A stretch of 64,000 nucleotides of DNA from Dietzia timorensis (GTDB taxonomy: Bacteria; Actinomycetota; Actinomycetes; Mycobacteriales; Mycobacteriaceae), in assembly GCF_001659785.1 (NCBI RefSeq), contig NZ_CP015961.1, forward strand, positions 248,001 to 312,000, written 5' to 3'. The notes under the pieces are model-generated. The model searched no databases. It was not told the origin of the DNA and saw nothing but the letters and a program-made list of their open reading frames with translations. Position numbers and translations under genes: made by a program. Shown here one piece after another: positions 36,133 to 57,821 of this stretch (positions within the stretch are counted from its first letter, which is position 1; each line of letters begins with the position of its first letter).

Positions 36133-38010
36133 GTGCAGGACACACAGTCGCAGAACGAGACCGGCACGGCGGAAGGCGCCGAGCGTGGCCCCCGAGACGT
36201 GCTCATCCAGCGCACGTTCTTCGCCGGCACCCGCTCCTGGGTCAACGACCAGCTCTACACCCGCGAACACGCCGGCCGCGTCCGCCGCACCCGAGACACT
36301 CTGCACCTGGGCGCCGGCGCGCGCGTCGACACGAACACCTACTTCGGCCGTTTCGAGGCGAGCTACTGGCAGCGCTGGACCGAGCTCGATTCCGTTCGCG
36401 TCGAGGTCGCCATCGAGACCGAATCCGGCGGCGAGGTCGACGTTCTCGTGCGCGCCTCCGACATCGGCTCCCACGTCCGCACCGTCGACTTCACCCGTCA
36501 CCTCGGCCCGGGCACCGCTTCGCTCACCGTTCCCGTCCCCTCGTTCTATGACGGCGGAGGCATGTGGCTCGACCTGCGCGCCTTCGACCACGACGCACGG
36601 ATCACGAGCATTCGCTGGTACGCCACCACCACCCGGCCCCGCCGCCAGACCGCGATCGCCATCTGCACCTTCAACCGTGCCGACGATTGCGCCGCCACGG
36701 TCGCCGCGCTCGCCGAGGACCCAGAGGTCGTGGACCTCGTCGGCACCGTCTACCTCACCGATCAGGGCACCGATCTCGTCGAGACACGGGAGAATTTCCA
36801 CCAGGCGAAAACCATCTTCGGCGACAAGCTGCGCTACATCCGCCAGGCCAACCTCGGAGGCGCGGGCGGATTCTCGCGCGGCCTGTTCGAGGCCACCAGC
36901 GCCGATTCCCTCGCCCGTGGCCCCGTCGACACGCTGCTCATGGACGACGACGTTCGCGTCGAGCCCGAATCCGTCCTTCGCCTGTTCGCCTTTGCCCAGC
37001 TCACCCGCTCGCCGATCCTCGTCGGCGCGCAGATGCTCTACCTGTTCAATCCGGACTACCTCCTCGTCTCCGGCGAGCGTTCGGACCTGTCGCAGCTCAA
37101 GGCGGGCCTCGATTCGGATGAGTGGGCGGTCCGTGACGAATCGGTCATCGACAACATCCAGGAGCGCCGCATCGATGCGGAGTACAACGCCTGGTGGTCG
37201 TGCCTCGTGCCCAGCGAGGTCACTGGCGATATCGGCCTGCCCATGCCGTATTTCTTCCAGTGGGACGACATCGAGTACGGCATCCGCGCGCGCCAGGCCG
37301 GGTATCCGACAGCGACACTCCAGGGTGCCGCGGTATGGCATGCGGACTTCTACTGGAAGGACGCCGACGACTTCGGCCAGTTCTTCTACCAGCGCAATTC
37401 GCTCATCACCGCGACGATCCGTCGCGGCATCACCCGCAAGCAGGCCATCGCCCGCCTGCGTCGCACCATCGGCCAAACCATCGCGTCGATGAGCTACGGC
37501 CTCGCCATCACGCGGATCCGCGGCATCGAGGCGTTCCTCGAAGGGCCAAGCACGCTGGATGACGGCGGGCAGCGCGCCCTCCAAGCCGTCCGCGCCGAGC
37601 GCGAGAATTATCCCGAAACCAAGAAGTTGCCGGTCGACGCCATGCCTGCCGGGGTCACCGTCGCCCGCCGTGAGGGCACTCCCGAGGACAGCGCGGAAGA
37701 CAAGATCCTCGGTAAGCGGGCGGTGCAGGCGCTGCTCGGGCGCAAGCGCCCGGGGCCGGTGTCGATCCCGTTCGAGGACGCCAAATGGTGGCATGTCTCG
37801 CTGTTCGCGGACGCCTACGTCACCGACGCCTCCCAGACCGGCGTGCGACACCGCACCTTCGACAAGCAGCGTGCGATCGCGATCACCAAGGAACTCGAGG
37901 CGGTGCTGCGCCGCCTGAATTCGGAATTCGACGAGGTTGCCGACAGCTGGCGCGCCGCGCAGCCCGAACTTGCCGGACGCGAGAATTGGGAGCGCCTCTA
38001 CAACAGCTGA
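36133..38010 (+). CDS. glfT2: Galactofuranosyltransferase GlfT2
   Basis: GlfT2 is the processive cytoplasmic-face galactofuranosyltransferase that elongates the galactan with alternating beta-1,5 and beta-1,6 linkages from UDP-galactofuranose. The 625-residue product has an N-terminal beta-sandwich (about 1-165), the GT-A domain starting AIAICTFNRADD, the metal-binding DDD at 271-273 (LLMDDDVRVEPE), the acceptor-site WDD at 377-379 and His403 in VWHADFYWKD, matching the catalytic residues of the M. tuberculosis enzyme. The GTG start has GAGGAG about 12 bases upstream. It stands alone here, apart from glf and glfT1. Confidence 0.95.
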   Translation: MQDTQSQNETGTAEGAERGPRDVLIQRTFFAGTRSWVNDQLYTREHAGRVRRTRDTLHLGAGARVDTNTYFGRFEASYWQRWTELDSVRVEVAIETESGGEVDVLVRASDIGSHVRTVDFTRHLGPGTASLTVPVPSFYDGGGMWLDLRAFDHDARITSIRWYATTTRPRRQTAIAICTFNRADDCAATVAALAEDPEVVDLVGTVYLTDQGTDLVETRENFHQAKTIFGDKLRYIRQANLGGAGGFSRGLFEATSADSLARGPVDTLLMDDDVRVEPESVLRLFAFAQLTRSPILVGAQMLYLFNPDYLLVSGERSDLSQLKAGLDSDEWAVRDESVIDNIQERRIDAEYNAWWSCLVPSEVTGDIGLPMPYFFQWDDIEYGIRARQAGYPTATLQGAAVWHADFYWKDADDFGQFFYQRNSLITATIRRGITRKQAIARLRRTIGQTIASMSYGLAITRIRGIEAFLEGPSTLDDGGQRALQAVRAERENYPETKKLPVDAMPAGVTVARREGTPEDSAEDKILGKRAVQALLGRKRPGPVSIPFEDAKWWHVSLFADAYVTDASQTGVRHRTFDKQRAIAITKELEAVLRRLNSEFDEVADSWRAAQPELAGRENWERLYNS

Positions 38011-38566: not shown

Positions 38567-39739
38567 TTACTTCCTGCGCGGGGTGATCGTGCCGTAGTCG
38601 ATACCGCCGTGGCAGTACGTGGGCACGACCGGCCAGAAACGCTTCCACGGTGCGAGTTCGGTGGAGGGGAGGATCTGCAGCCAGCGCGGGTCATCCTTGC
38701 ACGGGTCCGCCATGGTCTTTTCCTTGATCATCGAGTCGTACTGATCGAGCGAGTCCTCGAGCGTGTTGGCGTTGGGGCAGATCTCGCGGCCGTAGTCCTC
38801 GTGGTACTTGCGAACCCCGGGGATCTTCGAGAGCTCGGGCTGCCAATTGTCCAGGGAAATGCCGTTTTCGGAGGAGACCCACACCCCGTCCTCGGTGTTG
38901 ATCACGAGAGAGTGATTGCCGTCGGTGTGGCCCGGGGTCCACAGCAGAGCGATGCCGGGGCCGAGTTCGATATCACCATCGAACAGCGCGAACTTGGACA
39001 TGTCGACGCCTTCGAGGCTGCCCTCGACGTACCATGCCCACTGCATGGGGTGCAGCGACTGGAGGGTGGCCAGCTCCTTGCGGTGCACGAGCATCTTCGC
39101 GTTGCCGAACAGCGCCTCGCGTGGTTCGCTCTCGCCCTCGATCGGCGTGGATGAGCCGAGGATCATCCGCGGATCCTGCACGTGAAGGTGGTCAAATGTA
39201 CAGAAATCGACGTCGTCGGGAGTCAGGCCGACCTTCGACAGCGCCTCGTCGGGCTCGTAGTAGTACTTGAGCACGAAGTTCTCTATAAGCTTTCCGCCGG
39301 GGATCCTGTCGATCATCTTTTGCAAGTTGTCGTAGAACGGCGCCTCGGCGGACCCCTCGGGCATCGTCGGCTCGAAGATGAGGGTGCGCGGTTCACCGTT
39401 CCAATCCTCGTACTGGACGACGACCATGCGGTTGATCATCGTGATGAGCGGAATGTACGGCGGACGCACGGCATCGTTGAAGGCGTAATTCACCGGGTAC
39501 GGGGCGCCGGCGACGTCCACCGACTTCACCGCCGTGACGGTGCCCTGTTCCTTGAAACGCTTCTTGTACTTCTCCGCGGCGTCGCGCACAGCCGTCAGTC
39601 GATCGCCGCGCGGCCAGATGTCGTGGACCCCGTCGAATTCGGGAATGGTGCGGGCGCCGATAGCCTCGAGCGTTCCGTCGGCGCTCGTGGTGGTGGTCGC
39701 ATTGGTGGCGGTCGTGGCGTGTTCAGTTGCTTGGGGCAC
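38567..39739 (-). CDS. Metallo-beta-lactamase-like hydrolase with altered metal motif
   Basis: The 390-residue product has a metallo-beta-lactamase-like core. In place of the usual HxHxDH motif it reads FDHLHVQD (HxHxxD without the following His), later TPGHTDGNHS supplies a His, and SENGISLDNW is in the region of the bridging acidic residue. This could be an active variant or a degenerate fold. The N-terminal about 30 residues are Thr/Ala-rich linker. An AraC regulator lies directly upstream on the same strand. Function unknown; the family has been seen with P450 or monooxygenase operons, which are not adjacent here. Confidence 0.6.
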   Translation of the reverse strand: MPQATEHATTATNATTTTSADGTLEAIGARTIPEFDGVHDIWPRGDRLTAVRDAAEKYKKRFKEQGTVTAVKSVDVAGAPYPVNYAFNDAVRPPYIPLITMINRMVVVQYEDWNGEPRTLIFEPTMPEGSAEAPFYDNLQKMIDRIPGGKLIENFVLKYYYEPDEALSKVGLTPDDVDFCTFDHLHVQDPRMILGSSTPIEGESEPREALFGNAKMLVHRKELATLQSLHPMQWAWYVEGSLEGVDMSKFALFDGDIELGPGIALLWTPGHTDGNHSLVINTEDGVWVSSENGISLDNWQPELSKIPGVRKYHEDYGREICPNANTLEDSLDQYDSMIKEKTMADPCKDDPRWLQILPSTELAPWKRFWPVVPTYCHGGIDYGTITPRRK

Positions 39740-39856
39740 GTGGTGACTCCTTCGTGGGCAGGACGTTATTTACCTCAACCATGCTCCCGGGATAGCCGAA
39801 AAACTTGTTCGGTGACGACAAGTTCATGTGGCGATCCCGCGGAGACGGCTTCGTTC

Positions 39857-40936
39857 TTACCCTGGGCCGATGCTGGTTCCCGCACCCGTGACGCCGCCGC
39901 GCAGCTCTCGCGGGGAGATGCCGTACCAGCGACGAACGGCATGGCTGAGCGCAGACTGCTCGCGGAAGCCGACGAGCGAGGCGACCTGACCGAGCGGAAG
40001 GTCGGTGGTCGTGAGGTAGCGGTAGGCGGTGTCTCTGCGCACCTCATCGAGGATGACGGCGTAGCTTGTGTCCTCCCCGGCGAGCTGGCGCTGCAGGGTT
40101 CTCGGGTGTTGCGCGAGGAGCGAGGCAACCGTGGACAGGGCGGGAGCACCCGCGTGGAGATGTTCGGCGATCGCCAGGCGGGTGCGGTGGGCAGCCGAGT
40201 GGTTCGGGTTTGAGTAGCGCGCGGAAAGGTAGTCGACCGCGGCGCTGCGGACGGAGTCGTCGGCGGTGGCAAAGGAGGTCTCGAGTACCCGGCGATCGAC
40301 GCGCAGCGCAGCCGTCGGCCGGTTGAATTTGACGTCGGTGCCGAAGAACTCGGTGTAGCGGGAGACCGGAGCCATCGGTGAATGCGGGATCTCCACGGAG
40401 TGGAAGCCGGGCGCGCCCGCGAGCAACGACTCCCCGACGTGGAAGAAAACGCCGAGGCCGAGCTCGATGGCCTGTGGGGAGTACGGCGACTGCAGAACGT
40501 CCTTGCGATAGGTCAGCGCGACGACACCGCGCTGGTGCCACGGGTCCGGAGAGATCTCGACCGCGAGCACCGGGCTGTGGACGAACATGAACTCCGCCGC
40601 GTGGCGAAGCGCTTCGGCGCCGTTGGACGATGCGGCGACGGCGACGGCGATGGGGCCGAGGATGTCCAGATCCTGGTGTTCGGCGAGCCGCAGCCCGAGG
40701 TCCGGGCACTCGAGCTCTGCCGCAGCCGCATCGAGCATGAGGTCGTGTGCGGTGATGGACACGAGCCCGTCGTCGCGATCCAGCGCACCCCGGGGGATGC
40801 CGAAGCGATCGAGAAACGAACCCGGGTCCCCGCCGAGAGCGGTGATGAGTGGAGCGAACCCGCGCAGGCTGGCGGAGCGAATCAGGGGTTCCAAGGCGAC
40901 GACCGTTCTCGCGGCATTTCTGACAACTGCTGCCAA
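39857..40936 (-). CDS. AraC family transcriptional regulator
   Basis: The 359-residue protein has an N-terminal arabinose-binding-like regulatory domain (PF12625 type; about residues 20-215) and a C-terminal AraC helix-turn-helix pair (about 265-350; AQHPRTLQRQLAGEDTSYAV and GQVASLVGFREQSALSHAVR). It is transcribed toward the MBL-like gene, with a gap of 117 bases, and probably controls it. The start is uncertain: the longest frame begins with TTG, and a TTG 14 codons later (40894) is an alternative. Confidence 0.85.
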   Translation of the reverse strand: MAAVVRNAARTVVALEPLIRSASLRGFAPLITALGGDPGSFLDRFGIPRGALDRDDGLVSITAHDLMLDAAAAELECPDLGLRLAEHQDLDILGPIAVAVAASSNGAEALRHAAEFMFVHSPVLAVEISPDPWHQRGVVALTYRKDVLQSPYSPQAIELGLGVFFHVGESLLAGAPGFHSVEIPHSPMAPVSRYTEFFGTDVKFNRPTAALRVDRRVLETSFATADDSVRSAAVDYLSARYSNPNHSAAHRTRLAIAEHLHAGAPALSTVASLLAQHPRTLQRQLAGEDTSYAVILDEVRRDTAYRYLTTTDLPLGQVASLVGFREQSALSHAVRRWYGISPRELRGGVTGAGTSIGPG

Positions 40937-41957: not shown

Positions 41958-43118
41958 CTAGGCCTCGGCTTCCTTCGGGTTCTCGCCGTACTTCATCCGG
42001 TAGGCGACGTGATCCATGTAGGTGCGGATCTCCTCGGTCTCCTCGCCCTCGTGGAGCTTTTCGTGAGCCTCCCGCATGAGCTTCTCGTGCGTGTGCGCGG
42101 CCTCTTCGTCGCCCTCGTCGTGGAGCACTTCCTTGGCGTGCTTGAGCACCGAGTTCTGGCGCGTCTTGCGCTGCCCGACAGGGGTGTACAGCGAGGTCAC
42201 CACGACGATGACGATGACGAGAACGATGACTGCGAGCGACAGCTCCGTCGGGATCTCCCATACGTCCACGTGCTCGCCGCCGTTGATGAACGGCAGGTTG
42301 TTCTCGTGCAGAGCGTGGATGATGAGCTTGACGCCGATGAACGCGAGGATGACCGAGAGCCCGTAGGACAGGAACACGAGGCGGTCGAGGAGGCCGTCGA
42401 GAAGGAAGTACAGCTGGCGAAGGCCGAGAAGCGAGAAGGTGACGGCGGTGAAGACGATGAACACGTCCTGGGTGATGCCGAAGATCGCCGGGATCGAGTC
42501 AAAGGCGAACATGATGTCCGTACCGCCGATGGCCACCATGACGAGTAGCATCGGAGTCATGACCCGCTTGCCATTTTCGACGGTGAACAGCCTGTCGCCG
42601 TCGTAATGGTCCGTCGAGGGGATGACCTTCTTGGCCACGCGCACGGCGATATTGTCCGCATCGTCGTCGCTGTCATCGGTGATGAGCCGGCCCGCGGTCC
42701 AGATGAGGAACAGGCCGAAGATGTAGAACAGCACGGCGAAGCGTTCGAGCGCTGCGGCGCCGATGAAGATGAAGGCCGTGCGCGCGATGAGGGAGAAGAC
42801 GATGCCGAACAGCAGCACTTTCTGCTGATCCGCGCGCGGAACCTTGAAGCTGGCGATGACCAGTAGGAAGACGAAGAGATTATCGACGCTCAGCGCCTTC
42901 TCGGTGAGGTAGCCCGCGAAGTATTCGACGCCCATCTGCTGGCCGCCGAAGATCCACACGACCACGCCGAACAAAATGGCGATTCCCACGTAGATCGACG
43001 ACCACACCGCCGCTTCCTTGAGCGTGGGAATGTGGGCCTTCCGGACATGGAAGAAATAGTCGAACAAGAGTAGGCCCACGATCAGGGCTACCGTCAGAAT
43101 CCAAACAGTGGTGGACAT
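41958..43118 (-). CDS. TerC family integral membrane protein
   Basis: This 386-residue TerC/Alx-type protein has nine predicted membrane helices and the acidic intramembrane motifs of the family: ALSVDNLFVFLL, GGTDIMFAFDSIPAIFGIT and a long cytosolic loop between them (about residues 155-190, DDSDDDADN). A charged C-terminal tail of about 75 residues (EEAAHTHEKLMREAH) is predicted to be coiled. Family members export manganese or act in tellurite resistance. No yybP-ykoY element was found in its 220-base upstream region; a hairpin CTCTCA/TGAGAG lies directly before the RBS. Confidence 0.88.
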   Translation of the reverse strand: MSTTVWILTVALIVGLLLFDYFFHVRKAHIPTLKEAAVWSSIYVGIAILFGVVVWIFGGQQMGVEYFAGYLTEKALSVDNLFVFLLVIASFKVPRADQQKVLLFGIVFSLIARTAFIFIGAAALERFAVLFYIFGLFLIWTAGRLITDDSDDDADNIAVRVAKKVIPSTDHYDGDRLFTVENGKRVMTPMLLVMVAIGGTDIMFAFDSIPAIFGITQDVFIVFTAVTFSLLGLRQLYFLLDGLLDRLVFLSYGLSVILAFIGVKLIIHALHENNLPFINGGEHVDVWEIPTELSLAVIVLVIVIVVVTSLYTPVGQRKTRQNSVLKHAKEVLHDEGDEEAAHTHEKLMREAHEKLHEGEETEEIRTYMDHVAYRMKYGENPKEAEA

Positions 43119-43340: not shown

Positions 43341-44342
43341 ATGAGCGAAGTTCAGCTGAGCGCTGCTCGTTCCCGCGCCGCCTCCGTCGGCGACGGGGGT
43401 AGCTCGCCGGAGACCGACTACGCCGGATCCGGATACGCCCATTCGAAGGCGATCCTGCTGGGGGAACATTCTGTCGTCTACGGCGCCCCCGCGATCGCGA
43501 TCCCGGTCGAGGCTCTCGGCGTGCAGGCGTGGGTCAACCCGCGCGCTGAGGGGCTGTACCTCGAAAGCGATCTGTACACCGGCGACCAGTGCGACACCGA
43601 GCACCAGACCGGCCCCGTTCGCGCGGCGGTCGCCGCGGCGCTCGAGGCGACCGGACAGCCCGGCGCGGGCCTGAGCGTGCGTCTGCACTCCACGATCCCG
43701 TTCGCCCGCGGGCTCGGTTCCAGCGCGGCGGTCGGCGCGGCGATCGGGCGCGCGATCGGCTCGATGGCCGGGCGCACACTAGACCCGGAACAGCTCAATA
43801 CGATCATCCAGGCGGCCGAGACAGTGGCGCACGGCAAACCGAGTGGGCTCGACGCGCGCACCGTGGTCGCCGATAGCCCGATCCGCTTCCAGAGTGGGGA
43901 GGTTTCGGCGATCTCCGTCGGCGGCGAGTTCGACTTCGTCATCGCCGATACCGGGGTCACCGGCAGCACCGCGGAGGCCGTGGATTCGGTGCGCGTGCAG
44001 CGCGAGGCGGAACGCGGTCGGGTCGAGGGCATCCTCGCGCAGCTCGCCGAGCACGCCGATGCCGCGGTCGCGGACCTCGCCTCCGGCGCGAAAAGCGCGC
44101 TGGGGGAGAAAATGTCCACCGTGCACGGGCTCCTCGCGTCGATCCGGGTGAGCTCCCCGCTACTCGATTCCCTCGTCGCAGAAGCCAACGCTGCCGGCGC
44201 GCTGGGGGCGAAGCTCACCGGTGGCGGGCTCGGCGGGTGCATCATGGCGCTCGCGTCGTCCGGAGCCCACGCGCAGCAGATCCGCGACGCCCTGTACCGT
44301 GCGGGCGCCGTACACACGTGGCATACGAAGGTGGTTCCGTAG
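43341..44342 (+). CDS. mvk: Mevalonate kinase
   Basis: This is the first gene of a six-gene mevalonate cluster; the kinase phosphorylates mevalonate with ATP. The 333-residue GHMP kinase has motif 1 in ILLGEHSVVYGAPAIAIP (about residues 38-55), motif 2 PFARGLGSSAAVGAAIG (about 120-136), the catalytic-Asp region GKPSGLDARTVVA and motif 3 KLTGGGLGGCIMAL. The GGGGGAGAGG before the ATG is a strong RBS. The next gene begins immediately after its stop. Confidence 0.93.
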   Translation: MSEVQLSAARSRAASVGDGGSSPETDYAGSGYAHSKAILLGEHSVVYGAPAIAIPVEALGVQAWVNPRAEGLYLESDLYTGDQCDTEHQTGPVRAAVAAALEATGQPGAGLSVRLHSTIPFARGLGSSAAVGAAIGRAIGSMAGRTLDPEQLNTIIQAAETVAHGKPSGLDARTVVADSPIRFQSGEVSAISVGGEFDFVIADTGVTGSTAEAVDSVRVQREAERGRVEGILAQLAEHADAAVADLASGAKSALGEKMSTVHGLLASIRVSSPLLDSLVAEANAAGALGAKLTGGGLGGCIMALASSGAHAQQIRDALYRAGAVHTWHTKVVP

Positions 44343-45350
44343 ATGAGTAACGGCGTCGGCATCGCTCGCGCATATCCGAACATGGCCCTGGTCAAGTACT
44401 GGGGCAAGCGCGACGAGGCGATGATGCTGCCCGCCGCGGGCAGTATCTCGATGACCTTCGACACCTACGCCACCACGACGCGCGTAGAACTCGACCCAAC
44501 CGCGCAATCGGACACCGTGGAGCTCAACGGGCAGGTCGCCGGCGGCGACGCCGCGGCGCGAGTGGTCGCTTTTCTCGACATCGTGCGTGAGATGGCCGGC
44601 TCGCAGTCCCGGGCGCACACCGTCACGGTCAACGAGGCGCCTACCGCTGCGGGGCTCGCGTCCTCCGCGTCCGGGTTCTCCGCGCTGGCCGTTGCCGCCT
44701 CGCGTGCCTACGGACTCGATCTCGACCAGGCCGCGCTGAGCCGGCTTGCGCGGCGCGGTTCGGGCTCCGCCGCCCGTTCGGTGGTCGATGGCATGGCCAT
44801 CTGGCACGCCGGTGACACCGACGTCGAGTCCTTCGCCGAGCCCATCGACGCCCCCGATATGCGGCTCGTCATCGTCACCGTAAACGCAGCGCAGAAGGCG
44901 GTCTCGAGCCGCGAGGCGATGCGTCGCACCGCCGCGACCTCCCCGTTCTACGGCGAATGGGTCACGTGCACCGAGGAAACCCTCGAACGCATGGTCGCCG
45001 CGTGCGCCTCGGGCGGGGTCGACGAGATCGGCCGCATCGCCGAGACCCACGCCCTGCGTATGCACGCCGTGATCCAGTCGTGCGACCCGCCGATCCGCTA
45101 CCTGTCCCCGCGCAGCCACGAGATCTTCGACGCCGTCGCCGCGCTCCGCGACGCCGGGACCACCGCGTGGGCGACCGCCGATGCCGGCCCCAACGTCGCC
45201 GTGCTCACGACCCCGGCCGAGGCCGACGCGGTCGCGGGCGCGCTCGCCGATCTCGGGACGGTCCGCGTCGTCGGGCCCGGCCACGGCGCCCGTGCCATCG
45301 ACGAAGAGACGGCGCGCGCCGCCTTCGACGCCGCCCGCAGCGGGACATGA
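44343..45350 (+). CDS. mvaD: Diphosphomevalonate decarboxylase
   Basis: This enzyme uses ATP to decarboxylate mevalonate diphosphate to isopentenyl diphosphate. The 335-residue GHMP-fold product has the N-terminal NMALVKYWGKRDE, the ATP loop ASSASGFSALAVAASRAYG and the GSGSAARSV segment with Ser and Arg residues conserved in the family, plus DAGPNVAVL near the C-terminus. Its ATG directly abuts the mvk stop, and its stop overlaps the next start by four bases, so the three kinases/decarboxylase are translationally coupled. Confidence 0.93.
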   Translation: MSNGVGIARAYPNMALVKYWGKRDEAMMLPAAGSISMTFDTYATTTRVELDPTAQSDTVELNGQVAGGDAAARVVAFLDIVREMAGSQSRAHTVTVNEAPTAAGLASSASGFSALAVAASRAYGLDLDQAALSRLARRGSGSAARSVVDGMAIWHAGDTDVESFAEPIDAPDMRLVIVTVNAAQKAVSSREAMRRTAATSPFYGEWVTCTEETLERMVAACASGGVDEIGRIAETHALRMHAVIQSCDPPIRYLSPRSHEIFDAVAALRDAGTTAWATADAGPNVAVLTTPAEADAVAGALADLGTVRVVGPGHGARAIDEETARAAFDAARSGT

Positions 45351-46453
45351 GCCAGGTCGCAGCCTCTGCGCCCGGCAAGCTCTACATCGCCGGCGAGTAC
45401 GCCGTGGTCGAGCCCGGCCATCCGGCGATCCTCGTCGCCGTCGACCGCTTCGTCACCGTCTCCGTCGACTTCGCACCCCAACTACACCCCGCCGATGACG
45501 CCGGAGGCCGCATCTTCTCGGACCGCTACCCCTCGGGTTCCAGGGACTATGCGCGAGCATCGGGCCGTATCGTCCCGGAGAATGGCGAGCTCGACTACGT
45601 GATCAGTGCGCTGGCCACAGTCGACGAGCTCCGCGCGGCCGAAGGCATAGATCCGCGCGCGTTCGACCTCCACATCACCAGCACGCTCGACGAGGCCGAC
45701 GGTCGCAAGTACGGCCTCGGGTCCTCGGGTGCCGTCGCCGTAGCGACGGTCGACGCGGCGGCGCAGGCCTGCGGGCTGGAGCTGGACCGCCGCGACATTT
45801 TCCAGGCCGCTCTGCTCGCGACGATCGCGGTGTCCCCGAACGCCTCGGGCGGCGATATCGCCGCGTCGACGTACGGCGGCTGGGTGCGGTACGTCTCGCC
45901 GGATCGCGCGGTCCTCCGTCAGCAAGCGGCCGAACACGGGGCGGCGTGGACGCTGCGACATGGCGAGTGGGGGAGCTGCGAGGTGCTCCCGCTCGGGGCG
46001 CCCGCGGGACTGGACTTGCACGTCGGCTGGACGGGCGCGCCCGCATCGACGAACGCGCTGGTCGCGCACGTGCGGCGCGGTGATTCGCGGGCGGCGGACG
46101 AGTACGCGCGGTTCCTGGCGGCGAACTCTACGTCGGTCGAAGCGCTCACCGCCGCGTGGACCCGGGACCCCGGCCGCGTGTGCGAGGGGATCGGCGAGGT
46201 GCGGCGGCAGCTCCGGCGCCTCGGAGAGGCGGCCGGCGCGGAACTGGAGACCCCGTTGCTGGCGACGCTGTGCGAGGTCGCCGAGGAGCACGGCGCGGCT
46301 GCCAAGTTCGCGGGCGCGGGCGGCGGCGACTGCGGGGTCGCGCTCGCCGGCCCGGGCGTAGACGCCGCGGCGATGCGCTCCGCGTGGGAACGTGCCGGCG
46401 TGCGCGCGCTGGACCTCCGGCCGACAGAACCGACGACGACAGGTGGTGTGTAG
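45347..46453 (+). CDS. Phosphomevalonate kinase
   Basis: The 368-residue GHMP kinase converts phosphomevalonate to mevalonate diphosphate. Evidence: APGKLYIAGEYAVVEPGHPAI at the N-terminus, the ATP-binding YGLGSSGAVAVATVDAA (about residues 125-142), the segment GGDIAASTYGGWV and the C-terminal KFAGAGGGDCGVAL. The ATG at 45347 overlaps the mvaD stop (ATGA) and is far more plausible than a longer in-frame reading that overlaps mvaD by 390 bases. The product resembles the actinobacterial and Gram-positive PMK group. Confidence 0.9.
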   Translation: MSQVAASAPGKLYIAGEYAVVEPGHPAILVAVDRFVTVSVDFAPQLHPADDAGGRIFSDRYPSGSRDYARASGRIVPENGELDYVISALATVDELRAAEGIDPRAFDLHITSTLDEADGRKYGLGSSGAVAVATVDAAAQACGLELDRRDIFQAALLATIAVSPNASGGDIAASTYGGWVRYVSPDRAVLRQQAAEHGAAWTLRHGEWGSCEVLPLGAPAGLDLHVGWTGAPASTNALVAHVRRGDSRAADEYARFLAANSTSVEALTAAWTRDPGRVCEGIGEVRRQLRRLGEAAGAELETPLLATLCEVAEEHGAAAKFAGAGGGDCGVALAGPGVDAAAMRSAWERAGVRALDLRPTEPTTTGGV

Positions 46454-46456
46454 GCG

Positions 46457-47596
46457 ATGGCGGATCAACACTCCGGCAAGCATCAGGTAGACGGGCCCGA
46501 GCCGCGGCGCGAGCGCAAGGACGACCACCTGCGCCTCGCCGCCGAGCAGTGGACCGGACCGGGCGCAGGCGGCGCACGGCGCAACGAGTTCGACGACCTC
46601 GAATTCGTCCACGACGCCCTCGGCGGCGTCTCCACCTCGGACGTGAACCTCGCCGCTCGCGTCGGAGAGTGGACGTGGGCCACGCCGTTCTACATCAACG
46701 GGATGACAGGCGGCACCGACCGCTCGACGGAGATCAACACCCAACTCGCCATCGCGGCGCGCGAGACGGGGCTCACCATGGCGTGCGGATCGATGTCGAT
46801 CGCGCTCGAAGACGAGGAGGCGGCGCGCGGCTTCGCCGTGCTGCGCCGCGAGAACCCGGACGGCTTCCTGCTCGCCAACATCGGCGCCGGGCGGAGCGCG
46901 GACGACGCCGCGCGCGTTGTCGACCTGATCTCCGCCGACGCGCTTCAGCTGCACGTCAACGCCGTGCAGGAGACCGTGATGCCCGAAGGTTCGCGCGATT
47001 TCTCGACGTGGCTGAGCGGTGTCGCCGAGATCGTGCGGCGCAGCGAGGTACCTGTCGTGGTCAAGGAGGTCGGGTTCGGGCTGTCGCGCCGGGCGTTGGC
47101 GCGGCTCGCCGAGGTCGGCGTGGAGATCGCTGACGTCGGAGGCCGCGGCGGCACCGACTTCCTCGCCATCGAGAACGCCAGACGATCCGCCCGCGACTAC
47201 GCCTTCCTCACCGGGTTCGGGCAGTCGGCGGCAGCCTGTCTGCTCGACGCCGGGGTGGCCGGCGCCGCTACGGGCGTAGAGTCCGCGCGGCCGGCGACGA
47301 TCCTGGCGTCCGGGGGCGTGCGTAACCCGCTGGACGTCGCGAAGGCGTTGGCGCTGGGAGCGAGCGCGGTGGGCGTTGCCGGGGTCTTCCTCGACGCGAT
47401 CCTCGAGGGCGGCGAAGACGCGCTCTCCGACGTCATAAAGCGGTGGCAGGCGCAGTTGCGGGAGCTGTGTGGGCTACTGGGTGCCGCAGACATCGGCGCG
47501 CTGCGCGATGCGGACGTTCTCGTGCGCGGGCGGCTGCGAGAGCACTGCGAGCTTCGCGGCGTAGACGCCGCCGCGCTGGCCAGACGTAGCGGTTAA
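46457..47596 (+). CDS. fni: Type II isopentenyl-diphosphate delta-isomerase
   Basis: This FMN- and NADPH-dependent isomerase interconverts IPP and DMAPP. The 379-residue TIM-barrel product has PFYINGMTGGTDRSTEIN, the segment LQLHVNAVQETVMPEG, VVVKEVGFGLS and the phosphate/flavin-binding DVGGRGGTDFLAIEN and LASGGVRNPLDVAKAL. It begins three bases after the pmk stop. A C-terminal extension of about 25 residues (RLREHCELRGVDAAALARR) is present. A gap of 149 bases separates it from mvaA, which may have a further promoter. Confidence 0.92.
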   Translation: MADQHSGKHQVDGPEPRRERKDDHLRLAAEQWTGPGAGGARRNEFDDLEFVHDALGGVSTSDVNLAARVGEWTWATPFYINGMTGGTDRSTEINTQLAIAARETGLTMACGSMSIALEDEEAARGFAVLRRENPDGFLLANIGAGRSADDAARVVDLISADALQLHVNAVQETVMPEGSRDFSTWLSGVAEIVRRSEVPVVVKEVGFGLSRRALARLAEVGVEIADVGGRGGTDFLAIENARRSARDYAFLTGFGQSAAACLLDAGVAGAATGVESARPATILASGGVRNPLDVAKALALGASAVGVAGVFLDAILEGGEDALSDVIKRWQAQLRELCGLLGAADIGALRDADVLVRGRLREHCELRGVDAAALARRSG

Positions 47597-47745
47597 CGTC
47601 GGCGCGCGACGCGGCGCGGGCGGCGGTGGGTCGGGCAAACCCCGGGCGAGGTCGGTCCGCATGAGGGAAAATGAGTTACCTGAATTTTCATTGGCTAACC
47701 GCAGTGGGACTATGGATCGAAGCGACAACCGAGCAGGAGTAGTTA

Positions 47746-48801
47746 GTGAGCACTGAGCGAGAAGTGTCTGTCACCGGCGTGCCCACCCAATGGGTCGGGC
47801 CGATCCGCGTGAGCGGCAACGCTGTGACGGGCGAAATCGAGGTGCCCTTGGCGACCTACGAGTCGCCGCTCTGGCCGTCGGTCGGTCGCGGGGCGAAGAT
47901 CTCCCGCATGGTCGAAGGCGGCATCCGGGCGACCGTGGTCGGCGAACGAATGTCGCGCTCGGTACTGTTCGTCGCGCGCGATGGCGCGGCCGCGTTTACC
48001 GCCTCGCAGCAGATTCTCGCACGTTTGGACGAGCTGCATGCGGTCGTCGGTTCCGGCAGTCGGCACGCGAAGCTGGTCGATGTGCACCCGGAGATCGTCG
48101 GCAATCTCCTCTACCTCCGCTTCGCCCTGCAGACCGGCGACGCCTCGGGCCACAACATGGTGACCCACGCTGCCGACCAGCTGATGACCGAGATCCTCGG
48201 CTGGAACCTCGGCCTCGAGTACGGCTCGATCTCGGGCAACTTCTGTACGGACAAGAAAGCCACCGGGGTCAACGGGATCCTCGGGCGCGGCCGCAACGTC
48301 GTCGCCGACATCGTCATCCCGCACGAGATCGTCCGCGACAACCTGCGCACCGACGCCGACGAGTTCGTCGACCTGGTGATGCGGAAGAACTACGTCGGCT
48401 CCACGATCGCCGGGGCGCTGCGCTCGGCGAACGCGCACTTTGCGAACATGTTGCTCGCCATCTACCTGGCCACCGGGCAGGACGCGGCCAATATCGTCGA
48501 GGGCTCCCAGGGATTTGCCTACGCGGAGTCCCGGGACGAAGGACTATACTTCTCCTGTACGCTCCCGCATCTGATCGTCGGTACCGTTGGCAATGGCAAG
48601 GACCTTCCGGATGTGGAGAACGCGCTCCAGCGGCTCGGTTGCCGAGAGGAGCGCGAGCCCGGAGGCAATGCGCGTCGTTTGGCGTCGTTGGTGGCTGCCA
48701 CGGTTCTTTGCGGTGAGCTTTCGCTGTTGGCCGCCCAGACGAATCAGGGCGAGCTGATGGCCACACACAGACAATTCGAACGCGCTAAGGGGCAGAACTG
48801 A
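47746..48801 (+). CDS. mvaA: Hydroxymethylglutaryl-CoA reductase, class I-like
   Basis: This enzyme reduces HMG-CoA to mevalonate with two NAD(P)H, the committed step. The 351-residue product has the catalytic Glu region ATYESPLWPSVGRG, the dinucleotide motif TGDASGHNMVTHA (class I enzymes: GDAMGMN), the catalytic Lys in NFCTDKKATGVN (class I: DKKPAAIN), VGTVGNGKDLP and the C-terminal catalytic His in LMATHRQFERA. These features and lack of a membrane anchor match the soluble class I-type enzyme of Streptomyces. Start is GTG with AGGAG upstream. Confidence 0.92.
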   Translation: MSTEREVSVTGVPTQWVGPIRVSGNAVTGEIEVPLATYESPLWPSVGRGAKISRMVEGGIRATVVGERMSRSVLFVARDGAAAFTASQQILARLDELHAVVGSGSRHAKLVDVHPEIVGNLLYLRFALQTGDASGHNMVTHAADQLMTEILGWNLGLEYGSISGNFCTDKKATGVNGILGRGRNVVADIVIPHEIVRDNLRTDADEFVDLVMRKNYVGSTIAGALRSANAHFANMLLAIYLATGQDAANIVEGSQGFAYAESRDEGLYFSCTLPHLIVGTVGNGKDLPDVENALQRLGCREEREPGGNARRLASLVAATVLCGELSLLAAQTNQGELMATHRQFERAKGQN

Positions 48802-49955
48802 TGACGGCGATTGGCATTCACGACATCGAGTTGGCCACGGCCCATCACGTCGTCGACCTCGCGGATCTCGCCGAGGCGCGCGGCGTGGATCCGGCCAAGT
48901 TCCAGAAGGGCCTTGGGCAGGACGAGTTCAGCTTCCCGGCTCCCGACGAGGATGTGGTGACGATGGGCGCGACTGCCGCGCATCGCCTCCTCGAGCGCAC
49001 CGGCACCGAGGGCGTCCGCACGCTGATGTTCGCGACCGAGACCGGTGTGGACCAGTCGAAGTCGACCGCCGTGTACGTGCACAAGCTTCTCGATCTTCCC
49101 GGCGAGGTGCGCTCCTTCGAACTCAAGCAGGCCTGCTATTCGGGGACCGGCGCGCTGCAGGCCGCGATCGGCATCGTCGCCCGCAACCCCGAGGAGCGGG
49201 TGCTCGTTATTTCCGCCGATGTCGCGCGGTACGAGATGAACTCCCCGGGCGAACCGACACAGGGCGCGGGCGCTGTGGCGATGCTCGTCGCCGCAGATCC
49301 GGCGCTCGTCGAGATCGATCCGGCCTCCGGGGTGTACTCGGAGGACGTGGACGATTTCTGGCGACCGAACGATTCCACTACCGCCGTCGTCGACGGCGGT
49401 CTGTCGATCACCGCGTACCTCAAGTCGGTCGAGAAGGCGTGGAAGGATCTCGAGCAGCACGGCGGCCCGTCGATCTCGGACATCAAGGCGTTCGTCTACC
49501 ACCAGCCGTTCACGAAGATGGCGCGCAAGGCGCAGGCACACCTCGCGCAGGTCACCGGCGCCGAACTCAACGACGGCGCGCTCGACACCGGTTCGGTGTA
49601 CAACCGGCGCATGGGCAACTCGTACACGGCCTCGCTGTACAGCGCGCTCACCTCGCTGCTGCACCACGAGGACGACCTCACCGGTAAGCGAGTCGGACTC
49701 GTGTCCTACGGTTCGGGCAGCGTCGCCGAGATGCTCACCGGCATCGTCAAGGCCGACGAGGACACCCGTCGCCGCGTCCGCGACAAGGTTCTCGGGATGC
49801 TCGACGGCCGCGTTCGCCTCTCCGTTCCCGACTACGAGGGGCTGCACGAGAAGACGATGCCCAGCGCCGACGACACCGACACCCCGCGGGTGACGGGCAG
49901 TCCGTTCCGCTTCGCCGGTATCCGCGGCCGCGCTCGTCACTACGAGCGGGTCTAA
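48801..49955 (+). CDS. mvaS: Hydroxymethylglutaryl-CoA synthase
   Basis: It condenses acetyl-CoA and acetoacetyl-CoA into HMG-CoA. The 384-residue thiolase-superfamily product has the acid residue region FATETGVDQSKSTAVY, the nucleophile Cys in LKQACYSGTGALQAAIG and the His in YHQPFTKMARKA, all conserved in HMGS. Its ATG shares one base with the mvaA stop. It ends the cluster; the order mvk-mvaD-pmk-fni-mvaA-mvaS is the one described for Streptomyces sp. CL190. Acetoacetyl-CoA must be supplied from elsewhere. Confidence 0.93.
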   Translation: MTAIGIHDIELATAHHVVDLADLAEARGVDPAKFQKGLGQDEFSFPAPDEDVVTMGATAAHRLLERTGTEGVRTLMFATETGVDQSKSTAVYVHKLLDLPGEVRSFELKQACYSGTGALQAAIGIVARNPEERVLVISADVARYEMNSPGEPTQGAGAVAMLVAADPALVEIDPASGVYSEDVDDFWRPNDSTTAVVDGGLSITAYLKSVEKAWKDLEQHGGPSISDIKAFVYHQPFTKMARKAQAHLAQVTGAELNDGALDTGSVYNRRMGNSYTASLYSALTSLLHHEDDLTGKRVGLVSYGSGSVAEMLTGIVKADEDTRRRVRDKVLGMLDGRVRLSVPDYEGLHEKTMPSADDTDTPRVTGSPFRFAGIRGRARHYERV

Positions 49956-50470: not shown

Positions 50471-51130
50471 CTAGCCGCTTTGTCCCGGCGCGTGCCGCAG
50501 CCACTCGAGAACCGCGCGCACGCGCCGGTTCTCGTCATCGGGTGCGAAGCCGAGTTTCCTGAACACCGCCGCCACGTGCTTACTCACCGCGCCGGCACTG
50601 AGAAACAGCCGCTCCGAGATCTGCGAGTTACTCAGTCCCTCGGCCATCAACGCGAGTACCTCTTGCTCGCGCGCGGTCAGCGCGGCGACCCCGCTCGTCC
50701 GATTGCGCAGCAGCGTCTTCACCACGTCCGGGTCGACGACGGTCTCCCCACGCGCCACCGCCTCGAGCGACGCCAAAAAGTCCCGCACATCGCCCACGCG
50801 TTCCTTGAGTAGATACCCGAAGCTGCCGTGTTCGAGCAGCGTGTCCAGGTATGCCGCCGCAACGTATTGGGAGAGTATGACGGCGGGCAGTGCATCCTCC
50901 CCGGACGCCGAACGCTCGCGGCGGATCGTGTGGACTGCGGCGAGCCCGTCATCTGCCATGTTCGGAGGCATGCGCACGTCCGAGACGATGAGATCCGGGG
51001 AGTGCTCGGCGCACGCCGCGATGAGTTCCGGGGCGTCGGAGACCGCGACGACCACGTGTCCGGCAGCCTCGAGGAGTTGGGCAAGGCCGGCGCGCAACAG
51101 CGCGGAATCCTCGGCGAGAACGATCCTCAT
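50471..51130 (-). CDS. NarL/LuxR-type response regulator
   Basis: The 219-residue regulator has a receiver domain (about 1-120; acidic pocket Glu7-Asp8, phosphoacceptor Asp51 in DLIVSDVRMP, Lys in GYLLKERVG) and a C-terminal LuxR-type helix-turn-helix (about 150-215; ALTAREQEVLALMAEGLSN). Its ATG at 51130 overlaps the stop of the sensor kinase gene (ATGA). Longer in-frame starts overlap the kinase and are rejected. It likely acts on the divergent ABC transporter genes. Confidence 0.92.
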   Translation of the reverse strand: MRIVLAEDSALLRAGLAQLLEAAGHVVVAVSDAPELIAACAEHSPDLIVSDVRMPPNMADDGLAAVHTIRRERSASGEDALPAVILSQYVAAAYLDTLLEHGSFGYLLKERVGDVRDFLASLEAVARGETVVDPDVVKTLLRNRTSGVAALTAREQEVLALMAEGLSNSQISERLFLSAGAVSKHVAAVFRKLGFAPDDENRRVRAVLEWLRHAPGQSG

Positions 51131-52416
51131 TCGGCCTCCTCCAAGCGGTGAACGTCCACGGCCGTCCCGGAGCCAGAGTACGTAGTACCCGCCTCGCCCC
51201 GCAGCTCCCGCGATGCAGGCAGTTCCAACCTCAGGCGCGCGCCGCCGAGTCTCGAGGACCATTCCAGCGCCGCGTTCCCGCCAAGTGCGGAGGCCCGTTC
51301 CCGGAGGCCTGCGACTCCGGTCCCGGAATTTGCATCTAGCGAGGCCTCGGAAAGTCCAGCCCCGTCGTCGTCAACACGGATACCCACCGTCGACCGCGAG
51401 AACCGCACCGCGATATCCACGCGCTCGGCGCCGCCGTGGCGGACGGCGTTGGTGAGTCCTTCGGCGGCGCAGTGGTACAGCAACAGCGCCGGGGTCGCGC
51501 TGATCGCGGTGCCGGAGCCGGGTTCTATGTCCGTGTGGAGTTCGCCGTCGACCCCGCTGTGCGCAAGCAATTCACCAAGAGCCTCCACGAGTCCTCTGTC
51601 CGCAAGAACTTGCGGGTAGATTCCTCGAATCACCTGGCGCAACGCCTCGAGAGCACTACGGGCGTTGAGTTTGGCTTGTTCGAGGGGTTCGGCGAGTTCC
51701 GGCGCGTCCGCCGCCTTGAGCTCGGCCGTGGCGATGTTGAGCTGCAGCGCGCTGAGGTACTGCTGCACGCCGTCGTGGAGTTCGCGTTCGATGCGGCTGC
51801 GCTCTCCTGTGAAGGCGTCGATGAGTACCGCGCGTGATTCTTCGAGGCGCAACAGATCCTCGCGCGTCGGCGCGTTCGTTGCCGACGTGGAATAGACCGC
51901 GGCGCCGGCGATGAGCCAGGACAGGTACGCGAGCGCGAAAAGGAACACGATCGCGAATCCCCAGCCCGCGGCAAGAACGCCGGGAAACCACGACGTGGTC
52001 CACCAGCCGAGAGTGAACTCGAGATCCGAGCGAAACAGGGAAATGACCGGAATGACCAGCAGCGAGACCACAGCGGTCGCGCCGATCGCCTCGATGACGA
52101 ACGCGAGGAGCGAGAGTACGAGCTGGCATGCGAGGTGGACGAATTTCTGCCAGTCGAACCACCTGCCGGCGCGGCGACGTCGAATCGGCACGCCCATCCA
52201 CCTAGCCCCGGTGGCGCCGAGTTCGTCGGCGATACGCGCGACGAGCGGTAGCCACGGCAAGAGCACGATCGACGCGATGAGCAGCGGGAGCGCGATCACG
52301 GCGAGGACGAACGTCCACGCCATCGCGCGCCACGTCGCTGCGGCGAGGATGAACCGTAGCGGGTTGTGGCGAAAGCCCCTCGGCCAGCGTGCGCGGTGTT
52401 CGGGCGGACGGTCCAT
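51127..52416 (-). CDS. Membrane sensor histidine kinase (HisKA_3)
   Basis: The 429-residue kinase has an N-terminal putative-sensor domain with about four to five membrane helices (about residues 28-190; ATWRAMAWTFVLAVIALPLL, then a pair near 115-170), the HisKA_3 phosphoacceptor box ERELHDGVQQYLSAL (about 218-232), and a C-terminal HATPase domain (LTNAVRHGG, RVDDDGAGLS, GLRERASALGG). It is of the NarX/DesK group that pairs with LuxR-type regulators, as here. The ATG at 52416 gives the usual N-terminus; upstream in-frame sequence overlaps the divergent promoter. The signal sensed is unknown; linked ABC genes suggest envelope stress or antibiotic efflux. Confidence 0.9.
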   Translation of the reverse strand: MDRPPEHRARWPRGFRHNPLRFILAAATWRAMAWTFVLAVIALPLLIASIVLLPWLPLVARIADELGATGARWMGVPIRRRRAGRWFDWQKFVHLACQLVLSLLAFVIEAIGATAVVSLLVIPVISLFRSDLEFTLGWWTTSWFPGVLAAGWGFAIVFLFALAYLSWLIAGAAVYSTSATNAPTREDLLRLEESRAVLIDAFTGERSRIERELHDGVQQYLSALQLNIATAELKAADAPELAEPLEQAKLNARSALEALRQVIRGIYPQVLADRGLVEALGELLAHSGVDGELHTDIEPGSGTAISATPALLLYHCAAEGLTNAVRHGGAERVDIAVRFSRSTVGIRVDDDGAGLSEASLDANSGTGVAGLRERASALGGNAALEWSSRLGGARLRLELPASRELRGEAGTTYSGSGTAVDVHRLEEAE

Positions 52417-52526
52417 GGGCACCGAGCTTAACGGCTCAGGAAGCCCGACACAGTAGAGCTGGCTCCACCTCGGCACGGAACTCCGCGCCATATCGCGGAC
52501 GTATGACATGAGATGAACTCGAGGAC

Positions 52527-53201
52527 ATGAACACAACAACGCGACAGGCCGGGCCATTCGAGCCACGGCAACAACCGAGTGCGCACCAGATGTCCGCAGC
52601 GTCGTCTCCCTCGATCATCGCCGAGAACCTCGGGATGCGATACGGAACCACAACGGTTTTCGAAGGACTGAATCTGAAGGTGCTTCCGGGACGGATTCTG
52701 GTACTCGCCGGACCTTCGGGGGCCGGCAAGACAACGCTGCTCAACCTCTTGTCGGGGTTGGACTCGGCGACTGCGGGCAGGGTGAACGCTCCCGGCCGGA
52801 CCCAGCGCGGTTTCGTGTTCCAGGACTATAACCTGCTGGAATCGCTGTCCGCCTGGGATAATGCACTGCTGTCGGGGAGGCTGCTGGGGAAGCGGGTGAA
52901 CAAGGCGGCGGCGCGCGCGACGTTCGCGGAACTGGGACTCGACGGCCTCGAGCGTCGGCTCCCGCACGAACTTTCCGGCGGGCAGCAGCAACGCGTCGCC
53001 GTGGCTCGGGTGCTGATTGCGCGGGTGCCCTTCATCTTCGCCGACGAGCCGACCGGCGCGCTCGACGCGCGGAGCGCGGACATCGTCCTCCGCAACCTGC
53101 GCGGCGCGGCCGACCGAGGCGCGACCGTGGTTCTCGTGTCCCATTCGCCTGAAGGATTGAGCTGTGCCGATGACATCGTGGAAATCGGAGGCGGCCGATG
53201 A
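52527..53201 (+). CDS. ABC transporter ATP-binding protein
   Basis: The 224-residue ATPase of the MacB/LolD group has Walker A (GPSGAGKTTLLNLLSG), signature LSGGQQQRVAVARVLI, Walker B with FIFADEPTGALD, and the H-loop VLVSHSPEG. An N-terminal extension of about 30 residues before SIIAENLGMRYG is Gln/Pro-rich; the ATG at 52590 is an alternative start. It overlaps the permease gene by four bases (ATGA). The two-component genes diverge from it across a gap of 110 bases, a common arrangement for antimicrobial-responsive exporters. Confidence 0.92.
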   Translation: MNTTTRQAGPFEPRQQPSAHQMSAASSPSIIAENLGMRYGTTTVFEGLNLKVLPGRILVLAGPSGAGKTTLLNLLSGLDSATAGRVNAPGRTQRGFVFQDYNLLESLSAWDNALLSGRLLGKRVNKAAARATFAELGLDGLERRLPHELSGGQQQRVAVARVLIARVPFIFADEPTGALDARSADIVLRNLRGAADRGATVVLVSHSPEGLSCADDIVEIGGGR

Positions 53202-54936: not shown

Positions 54937-55908
54937 CTAACGGCGGAAGTCCTCCGACGCGCCGCGTCGCTGCAGCCGCGCCCACTCGGCGAGGCCCTGC
55001 GGATCCTTGCGCGAGACGAGGAAGTACCAGCCGAAACGCACGATCTCCTGCGGCAGCAGCTTGCGCATGCCCGGTTGGCTGAGCAGGTAGCCACGATTGC
55101 GGTAGGTGAAGAACCGCTTCCCCTCATCGTCGGGGTACTGCGTGTGCATCCGCCCGCCGAGGATCGGCTTGAACTCGCCCGAACCGTTGGGGTGCAGGTA
55201 CGCCGCCGTCAGACACGTGCCGAAGCGCACGCCCGAACGTACGAGCCGCCGGTGGATCTCCACCTCGTCGCCGCGGATGAACAGCCGCAGATCCGGCACG
55301 CCCACGCGGAACAGGCAGTCCGCGGTGAACAGCGCGCCGTTGAACAGCGAGGCGATGCCGGGCAGCAGGTCGGAGGAATCGACATTGCCCTCGGCGTCCG
55401 GCTCGAACAGCTCCGAACGCAGCCGCCGCCACGCAAGCCCCCGGCGCAGCGGGAACGCCAGTCGATCGGGATCGTCGATGTCGGCGACCACCGGGGAGAC
55501 CTCGTCGAGGCCATGCCGCGAGGCGCAATCCAGCAGCGTTTCCAGGACCTCGGTGCTTTCGGGACGTCCGTCGTCATCGGCACACCAGACGCGGTCGGCG
55601 CCGAGTGCGAGGGCCTGGAGCATGCCGAGCGCGAAACCGCCGGCGCCGCCCAGATTGTGGCGGCTACCCACATAGGATGACGGCGCCGGAAGCGATTCCA
55701 CGAGTTCGCGAACCTCGGGCTCGTCGGCATTGTCGACGACGATGACGTGGTCCACCGGGCGGGTCTGTGAGCACACGAGCTCGAGCGAGCGGCGCAGCGG
55801 TTCGAGGCGCTTGTGGGTGACCACGACCGCGATGATCTTCTCGCCGGATGTGCCTCCGTTCGCAGGCGTTCCGGATGTGCCAGATGACGGCGGGGTGGGG
55901 GAGGTCAT
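54937..55908 (-). CDS. glfT1: Galactofuranosyltransferase GlfT1
   Basis: GlfT1 adds the first two galactofuranose residues to the decaprenyl-linked rhamnose-GlcNAc linker at the cytoplasmic face. The 323-residue GT-2 family product has the N-terminal AVVVTHKRLEPLRRSLELV, the LGGAGGFALGML segment and the metal-binding WCADDDGRPE, and a downstream GDEVEIHRRL. An N-terminal Ser/Thr/Gly-rich stretch of about 22 residues precedes the domain. The ATG at 55908 overlaps the wzt stop (ATGA). The wzm-wzt-glfT1 set matches the mycobacterial Rv3781-Rv3783 genes. Confidence 0.92.
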   Translation of the reverse strand: MTSPTPPSSGTSGTPANGGTSGEKIIAVVVTHKRLEPLRRSLELVCSQTRPVDHVIVVDNADEPEVRELVESLPAPSSYVGSRHNLGGAGGFALGMLQALALGADRVWCADDDGRPESTEVLETLLDCASRHGLDEVSPVVADIDDPDRLAFPLRRGLAWRRLRSELFEPDAEGNVDSSDLLPGIASLFNGALFTADCLFRVGVPDLRLFIRGDEVEIHRRLVRSGVRFGTCLTAAYLHPNGSGEFKPILGGRMHTQYPDDEGKRFFTYRNRGYLLSQPGMRKLLPQEIVRFGWYFLVSRKDPQGLAEWARLQRRGASEDFRR

Positions 55909-56759: not shown

Positions 56760-56777
56760 GGTGTGTGCGTTCCTTTC

Positions 56778-57659: not shown

Positions 57660-57821
57660 GTGGGCAAACCTTACCCGTTGGGAATGAGAAAGCCGTGTCG
57701 CGAGGACGGAGGCGTCCGCAATGAGGAGATCATCGGCGACCAGGCCGGGAGGGACGCTCTGGCCACGCACCTGGCAGCGTTGCGGGCCATCGCCGACGGA
57801 TAGTCGGAGGCGTCGCCTACG

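Follow-up and report, generated by a model that had tools for sequence, protein, structure and literature searches.

Six genes for the mevalonate pathway form a cluster in Streptomyces sp. CL190, which reportedly retains the methylerythritol phosphate (MEP) pathway as well, the cluster serving the production of a terpenoid antibiotic. Here, we describe a cluster that matches it in its six functions and, according to an initial annotation, in their order, in Dietzia timorensis, an organism that, in contrast, appears to have lost the MEP pathway. It occupies positions 43341-49955 on the forward strand of a stretch of 64,000 nucleotides (positions 248,001-312,000 of contig NZ_CP015961.1, assembly GCF_001659785.1), hereafter called the window. 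We infer, with a probability of roughly 0.9, that this cluster is the sole route to isopentenyl diphosphate (IPP) and dimethylallyl diphosphate (DMAPP) in D. timorensis, and that it was imported as a cassette, with loss of the MEP genes except dxs, which would be kept for thiamine synthesis.

Similar replacements have been described elsewhere. In the Corynebacterium kroppenstedtii complex, the mevalonate pathway is complete and the MEP pathway is missing (PMC13244258). Another report can be read as attributing both pathways to C. kroppenstedtii (PMC3848822), but the absence of IspG from the mevalonate-bearing Corynebacterium-like genomes in our sample (group g3, see below) does not fit that reading. 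Like D. timorensis, the complex belongs to the mycolata family, shows the same gene order and has its pathway replaced; unlike D. timorensis, it has no DXS match, and the acquisition was a separate one according to our trees. The genus Brachybacterium mostly uses the MEP pathway and comprises MEP, mevalonate-only and mixed species (PMC13001223, section 18). The mevalonate-only species named there are B. kimchii and B. halotolerans, the latter under the misprinted genus name Bacillus. The cassettes of B. halotolerans and B. endophyticum are the closest to that of D. timorensis in our trees, although these species belong to a different bacterial order. Species-level splits between the two pathways within a genus have also been reported for Cellulomonas taurus and in Staphylococcus, with ten such bifurcated genera in total (PMC10663253, section 14). 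Whereas C. taurus keeps an incomplete set of MEP genes and has its mevalonate genes in two operons, D. timorensis has a single cluster, with dxs as the sole MEP gene found. A swap from the MEP to the mevalonate pathway within a genus is an already published kind of event, of which D. timorensis is a new example. Judged by titles and the openings of abstracts, no report on mevalonate in Dietzia or D. timorensis was found in the literature; the supplements of the two surveys (PMC13001223, PMC10663253) may list the species.

All six enzymes from HMG-CoA synthase to type II IPP isomerase had been recognized in the initial annotation, in the order mvk-mvaD-pmk-fni-mvaA-mvaS and with tight coupling, and profile matches and inspection of the reading frames bear this out (Table 1). 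The genes are intact and closely packed, each with an open frame between its start and stop codons; the profile scan of pmk was run from position 45341, and the frame starting at 45347 was verified separately. The mvk and mvaD genes abut, and ATGA overlaps are found at mvaD/pmk and mvaA/mvaS. A gap of 149 bases (47597-47745) precedes mvaA and possibly contains a second promoter for mvaA-mvaS. Five of the six proteins pass the curated cut-offs of their NCBIfam models. The exception is MvaA, which matches the HMG-CoA reductase model TIGR00533 (2.6e-81), yet with a score of 273.6 stays below the cut-off of 441.8. In MvaS, residues E80, C112 and H234, which we take to be the catalytic triad, are invariant in 13 aligned sequences, its own included. 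MvaD is of the diphosphomevalonate type: the models for phosphomevalonate decarboxylase (167.6 vs. 475) and bisphosphomevalonate decarboxylase (59.5 vs. 560) score far below their cut-offs. The canonical (phosphomevalonate) pathway is encoded with all of its enzymes, i.e., HMGS, HMGR, MVK, PMK and MDD. An IPP isomerase is needed in addition, because the mevalonate route yields IPP only, and Fni scores above the cut-off for this function. The step that forms acetoacetyl-CoA, catalyzed by a thiolase or an NphT7-type enzyme, is not represented among the six genes, and the genome was not searched for a thiolase. The designation of the host as a mycolic acid producer is supported by the gene content of the window, where Pks13 and DprE1 score above their curated cut-offs.

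The genome of D. timorensis consists of a single contig of 3,607,892 bases and is 99.99% complete. Of the genes proposed for a search in the initial annotation (dxs, dxr and ispD-H), only dxs was found, through a match for DXS; profile searches gave no match for DXR, IspF, IspG or IspH in this genome, IspE not being searched for, and the site of ispD lacks this gene. DXR was found in all 10 congeners sampled and in 149 of 151 family genomes, which represent only part of a larger group; the misses are D. timorensis and G033, a genome that also contains mvaS. Within the genus, IspG was found in 22 of 23 genomes, with D. timorensis as the sole miss, and IspF and IspH each in 21 of 23; besides D. 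timorensis, IspF is missing from a 64%-complete and IspH from a 78%-complete assembly. DXS, by comparison, is present in D. timorensis and in 19 of the 22 other genomes, and the three without it are assemblies of 64-82% completeness.

Comparison with congener G003 shows what happened at the loci themselves. Four sites, distributed over three regions, keep the neighboring genes in order but have lost dxr, ispG, ispD-ispF and ispH. In G003, dxr and ispG flank a protease-like gene; this gene is in place in D. timorensis (58% identity), as are those farther out, but neither dxr nor ispG is present. The ispD-ispF genes of G003 are flanked by two genes, presumably carD and cysS judging by gene order, with 87% and 73% identity to their D. 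timorensis counterparts. Between these counterparts, a gene for an LCM-type methyltransferase occupies the site (genome positions ~703862-704704, minus strand; L059:13863-14705). Also the neighbors of ispH are present, and ispH is absent. When four G003 proteins (the products of dxr, ispG and ispH and that of the ispD-ispF frame) were used in tblastn searches of 293 kb covering the four sites in D. timorensis, no remnant was found (best E value 0.028), whilst the control on G003 gave full-length matches. The absences could in principle be artefacts of assembly or masking, since stretches may be masked and profile searches can overlook diverged genes. This explanation is hardly credible, however, for a single-contig assembly of such completeness, in which the sequence is unbroken across the four sites and neither the window nor 12 further stretches of the genome contain any N.

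The initial annotation considered both replacement of the MEP route and its supplementation for carotenoids or other terpenoids. With DXR, IspF, IspG and IspH without a match and ispD gone from its site, replacement gains support and supplementation is contradicted. The broader family explains why the latter deserves consideration. In a sample of 401 family genomes, the prokaryotic HMGS model scored above its cut-off in 21 (weaker matches were not counted), i.e., D. timorensis, 12 genomes of the Nocardia-like group g22, one each of groups g14 and g15, and six of the Corynebacterium-like group g3. IspG is kept in all 14 of these other genomes that fall outside g3 and in none of the six in g3, and DXR is absent from G033, the only one of the six examined for it. 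Within one family, these genes are thus additive in g22, a group named Nocardia-like by inference, and substitutive in the six g3 genomes and D. timorensis. Additive mevalonate genes are common in this family, and a cluster serving a special terpenoid or carotenoid, as is said of Streptomyces sp. CL190, would be in line with the Nocardia-like genomes. For D. timorensis, such a role is very improbable, given the missing MEP proteins and the lack of a terpene synthase or carotenoid gene among the flanking open reading frames (ORFs) scanned, which were not all ORFs.

Neither does the cluster look like an ordinary trait of the lineage, as it would if the relatives all carried it and lacked MEP genes. 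The mvaS product (HMG-CoA synthase, PF08540) was found in one of 23 genus genomes, that of D. timorensis, and the 22 others use the MEP pathway (DXR in 10/10 examined, IspF in 21/22, IspG in 22/22 and IspH in 21/22). It could be argued that the genus or family ancestrally relies on mevalonate and that the initial annotation was misled by the mycobacterial norm, considering the six g3 genomes that contain mevalonate genes without ispG. We regard this as very unlikely in view of the 22 congeners without mvaS and because the g3 clusters are not sister to that of D. timorensis (five-gene and two-gene trees for all six, and the six-gene tree for one). The presence of mvaS in only one genome of the genus, together with the missing MEP genes, thus argues for replacement rather than for a supplement or a lineage trait.

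For the origin of the cluster, 95 mevalonate loci were compared, i.e., 15 stretches from the family and the best 80 named loci of a scan; at least two of the 95 represent one genome twice. Among the matches listed, the order mvk-mvaD-pmk-fni-mvaA-mvaS is common to 47 of the 95 loci. The phylogeny of the enzymes, suggested as a check in the initial annotation, was determined as multi-gene trees with rows chosen by hand. In a six-gene tree (26 rows), the D. timorensis cluster is sister to those of Brachybacterium endophyticum and B. halotolerans with 100/100 support, and the next neighbors are Micropruina, Ruania, Leucobacter and Brevibacterium. The same placement was obtained in a five-gene tree (49 rows; 99, Shimodaira-Hasegawa-like approximate likelihood ratio test) and a two-gene tree (46 rows; 99/99). 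An origin from clusters within the mycolata family was rejected: those of g22, of the kroppenstedtii type and of the type in G362, G366 and G033 fall outside the clade that includes the D. timorensis cluster in the five-gene and two-gene trees, and the six-gene tree, too, sets the g22 and kroppenstedtii clusters outside. The C. variabile type was rejected as a sister; it lies in the same broad group, yet adjoins Agrococcus in the two-gene tree.

The site of the cluster is variable within the genus. In D. timorensis, terC and glfT1 are 11.8 kb apart, and the interval contains the mevalonate cluster and a two-component system, whereas the distance is 0.8-3.3 kb in five congeners examined in detail. 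A DNA search located both genes close together on one contig in seven of 10 congeners (G003, G034, G102, G115, G127, G139 and G150), which include these five. Because of this variable interval and of the nearest relatives in Brachybacterium and its neighbors, acquisition by horizontal transfer from outside, one of the options in the initial annotation, is the most likely origin.

The retained DXS is a protein of 604 residues (genome positions ~1933458-1935272, minus strand; L045:3459-5273), and its gene is syntenic with that of G003. It can be aligned over its whole length with solved DXPS structures (PDB 7a9h, 8ogh and 9hn8), but lacks a loop of 43 residues that is kept in all 13 congeners examined. 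By eye, the active-site motifs seem kept in comparison with G003. ThiG was found in all 10 genomes queried, D. timorensis included. At the gene level, this combination of a DXS that is full-length bar the loop, ThiG and no DXR is what a DXS dedicated to thiamine would look like. The product of DXS, 1-deoxyxylulose 5-phosphate (DXP), is a precursor of thiamine and pyridoxal too (PMC13001223, Table 1). The gene would have been retained because DXP is still required for the thiazole of thiamine, and the presence of thiG suggests that D. timorensis dxs acts as a thiamine enzyme. In Mycobacterium tuberculosis DXPS, a loop at the same site was cut for crystallography, and activity was little affected (PMC9068908). 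Given the small effects of this engineered deletion, D. timorensis DXS is probably active. Here, the loss is natural, in a host without matches for DXR, IspF, IspG and IspH.

Among the six g3 mevalonate genomes, a DXS match was obtained for G362 alone. This DXS is loopless, too, and encoded ~6 kb from thiG. The stretch between two DXS motifs measures 35 residues in D. timorensis and 26 in G362, versus 73-78 in looped forms. The five others (G033, G171, G230, G337 and G366) contain thiG (stretches L097, L098 and L100-L102) and have no DXS_N match, so that the sugar for the thiazole must come by another route. For C. kroppenstedtii subsp. demodicis, a genome paper describes DXS as missing (PMC13244258), and bypasses of Dxs have been argued to have evolved in other bacteria (PMC10663253). 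Tentatively, and with more doubt than confidence, one may envisage a single path of decay, in which DXS, after the swap, serves thiamine only and sheds a disordered loop from the first domain, after which dxs itself is lost, exposing a DXS-independent source of DXP.

Several observations weigh against the proposed import of the cluster, loss of the MEP genes and retention of dxs for thiamine. The best terC match lies on another contig than glfT1 in three of the 10 congeners (G055, G072 and G088), so that not every member of the genus has this interval. No integrase, transposase or other mobile element was found among the flanking ORFs scanned, not every ORF being included. The GC content of the cluster (0.697) is near that of 229 kb of the same genome (0.664) and gives no independent sign of transfer; compositional foreignness was dropped as uninformative. 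The closest cassette among the tree rows is only 62% identical, which implies an unsampled donor and a transfer that is old or from an unknown lineage. The five-gene tree contains long branches and uneven letter composition in some rows, not including that of the window. The loss of ispD was deduced from synteny with a single congener. With respect to dxs, short forms also occur, with 42, 42 and 55 residues between the motifs, in three Streptomyces plasmid proteins encoded beside ispG, and with 41 in Paraburkholderia. The loss of the loop thus proves nothing about thiamine, and its use as a mark of thiamine dedication was weakened, as it is not diagnostic. Furthermore, the DXS tree leaves D. 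timorensis, G362, Tsukamurella and the congeners without a resolved order, and dxs could conceivably have been replaced in place by a foreign copy. Its identity to the congeners is 58-62%, whereas the DXS of G003 is 81-97% identical to those of the 12 other congeners. Comparably low values were found for an ORF beside thiG (~53% vs. 84-87%) and the thiG frame (70-73% vs. 81-89%), which indicates that the whole species is divergent, and faster evolution of dxs is not claimed.

If the import did take place, a six-gene cassette whose type occurs chiefly in Micrococcales would have entered the variable terC-glfT1 interval of one species in a MEP-using genus. Acetoacetyl-CoA would be converted to HMG-CoA by MvaS and to mevalonate by MvaA, followed by two phosphorylations (Mvk and Pmk), decarboxylation to IPP (MvaD) and isomerization to DMAPP (Fni). 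Once IPP was supplied, dxr, ispD, ispF, ispG and ispH may have been lost by clean deletion, whilst dxs would have been kept and its disordered loop shed. D. timorensis would then represent a natural replacement, in one species, of an essential pathway that feeds decaprenyl phosphate and menaquinone and hence the cell wall. As MEP-using sister species exist, comparison with them permits a direct test of the roles of the MEP pathway besides IPP synthesis and of the retention of dxs. It would also mean that drugs targeting the MEP pathway, e.g., fosmidomycin, are not necessarily effective against every member of the mycolata.

Table 1. The mevalonate cluster of D. timorensis and the flanks of its insertion interval (window coordinates; scores in bits against cut-offs)
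Feature	Position	Strand	Evidence
mvk, mevalonate kinase, 333 aa	43341-44342	+	TIGR00549 2.7e-69, 233.7 vs. 163.05; GHMP kinase domains
mvaD, diphosphomevalonate decarboxylase, 335 aa	44343-45350	+	TIGR01240 2.7e-83, 279.5 vs. 171.35; MVD-like_N, MDD_C
pmk, phosphomevalonate kinase, 368 aa	45347-46453	+	TIGR01220 5.6e-103, 344.7 vs. 165.7
fni, type II IPP isomerase, 379 aa	46457-47596	+	TIGR02151 3.4e-102, 341.8 vs. 281.3
mvaA, HMG-CoA reductase, 351 aa, GTG start	47746-48801	+	Pfam HMG-CoA_red PF00368 1.2e-81, 275.1 vs. 27
mvaS, HMG-CoA synthase, 384 aa	48801-49955	+	TIGR01835 1.2e-128, 429.2 vs. 360.35
terC/alx membrane protein, left flank	41958-43118	-	TIGR03718; 65-74% protein identity in five congener stretches
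glfT1, right flank, low-coordinate part of ORF 54937-57240	54937-55836	-	NF050113 2e-154

The position of the cluster between galactan genes, as described in the initial annotation, is correct at a distance, with GlfT2 (36133-38010) on one side and GlfT1-Wzt-Wzm (54937-57845) on the other. Its immediate neighbors are the TerC/Alx membrane protein and the two-component system. The latter consists of a response regulator and a histidine kinase (50471-52566), which adjoin the cluster within the interval where D. timorensis and its congeners differ. A weakly lactonase-like gene and a gene for an AraC-type regulator are found at 38591-40888. In G003, this pair is located at ~2.317 Mb, far from terC-glfT1, which indicates that this part of the window is rearranged. 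In the clusters of G362, G366 and G033 (L066-L068), the order is mvk-mvaD-pmk-mvaA-mvaS without a match for fni in the stretch, and Curtobacterium loci are alike in this respect; their IPP isomerase is thus presumably encoded elsewhere or of another type.

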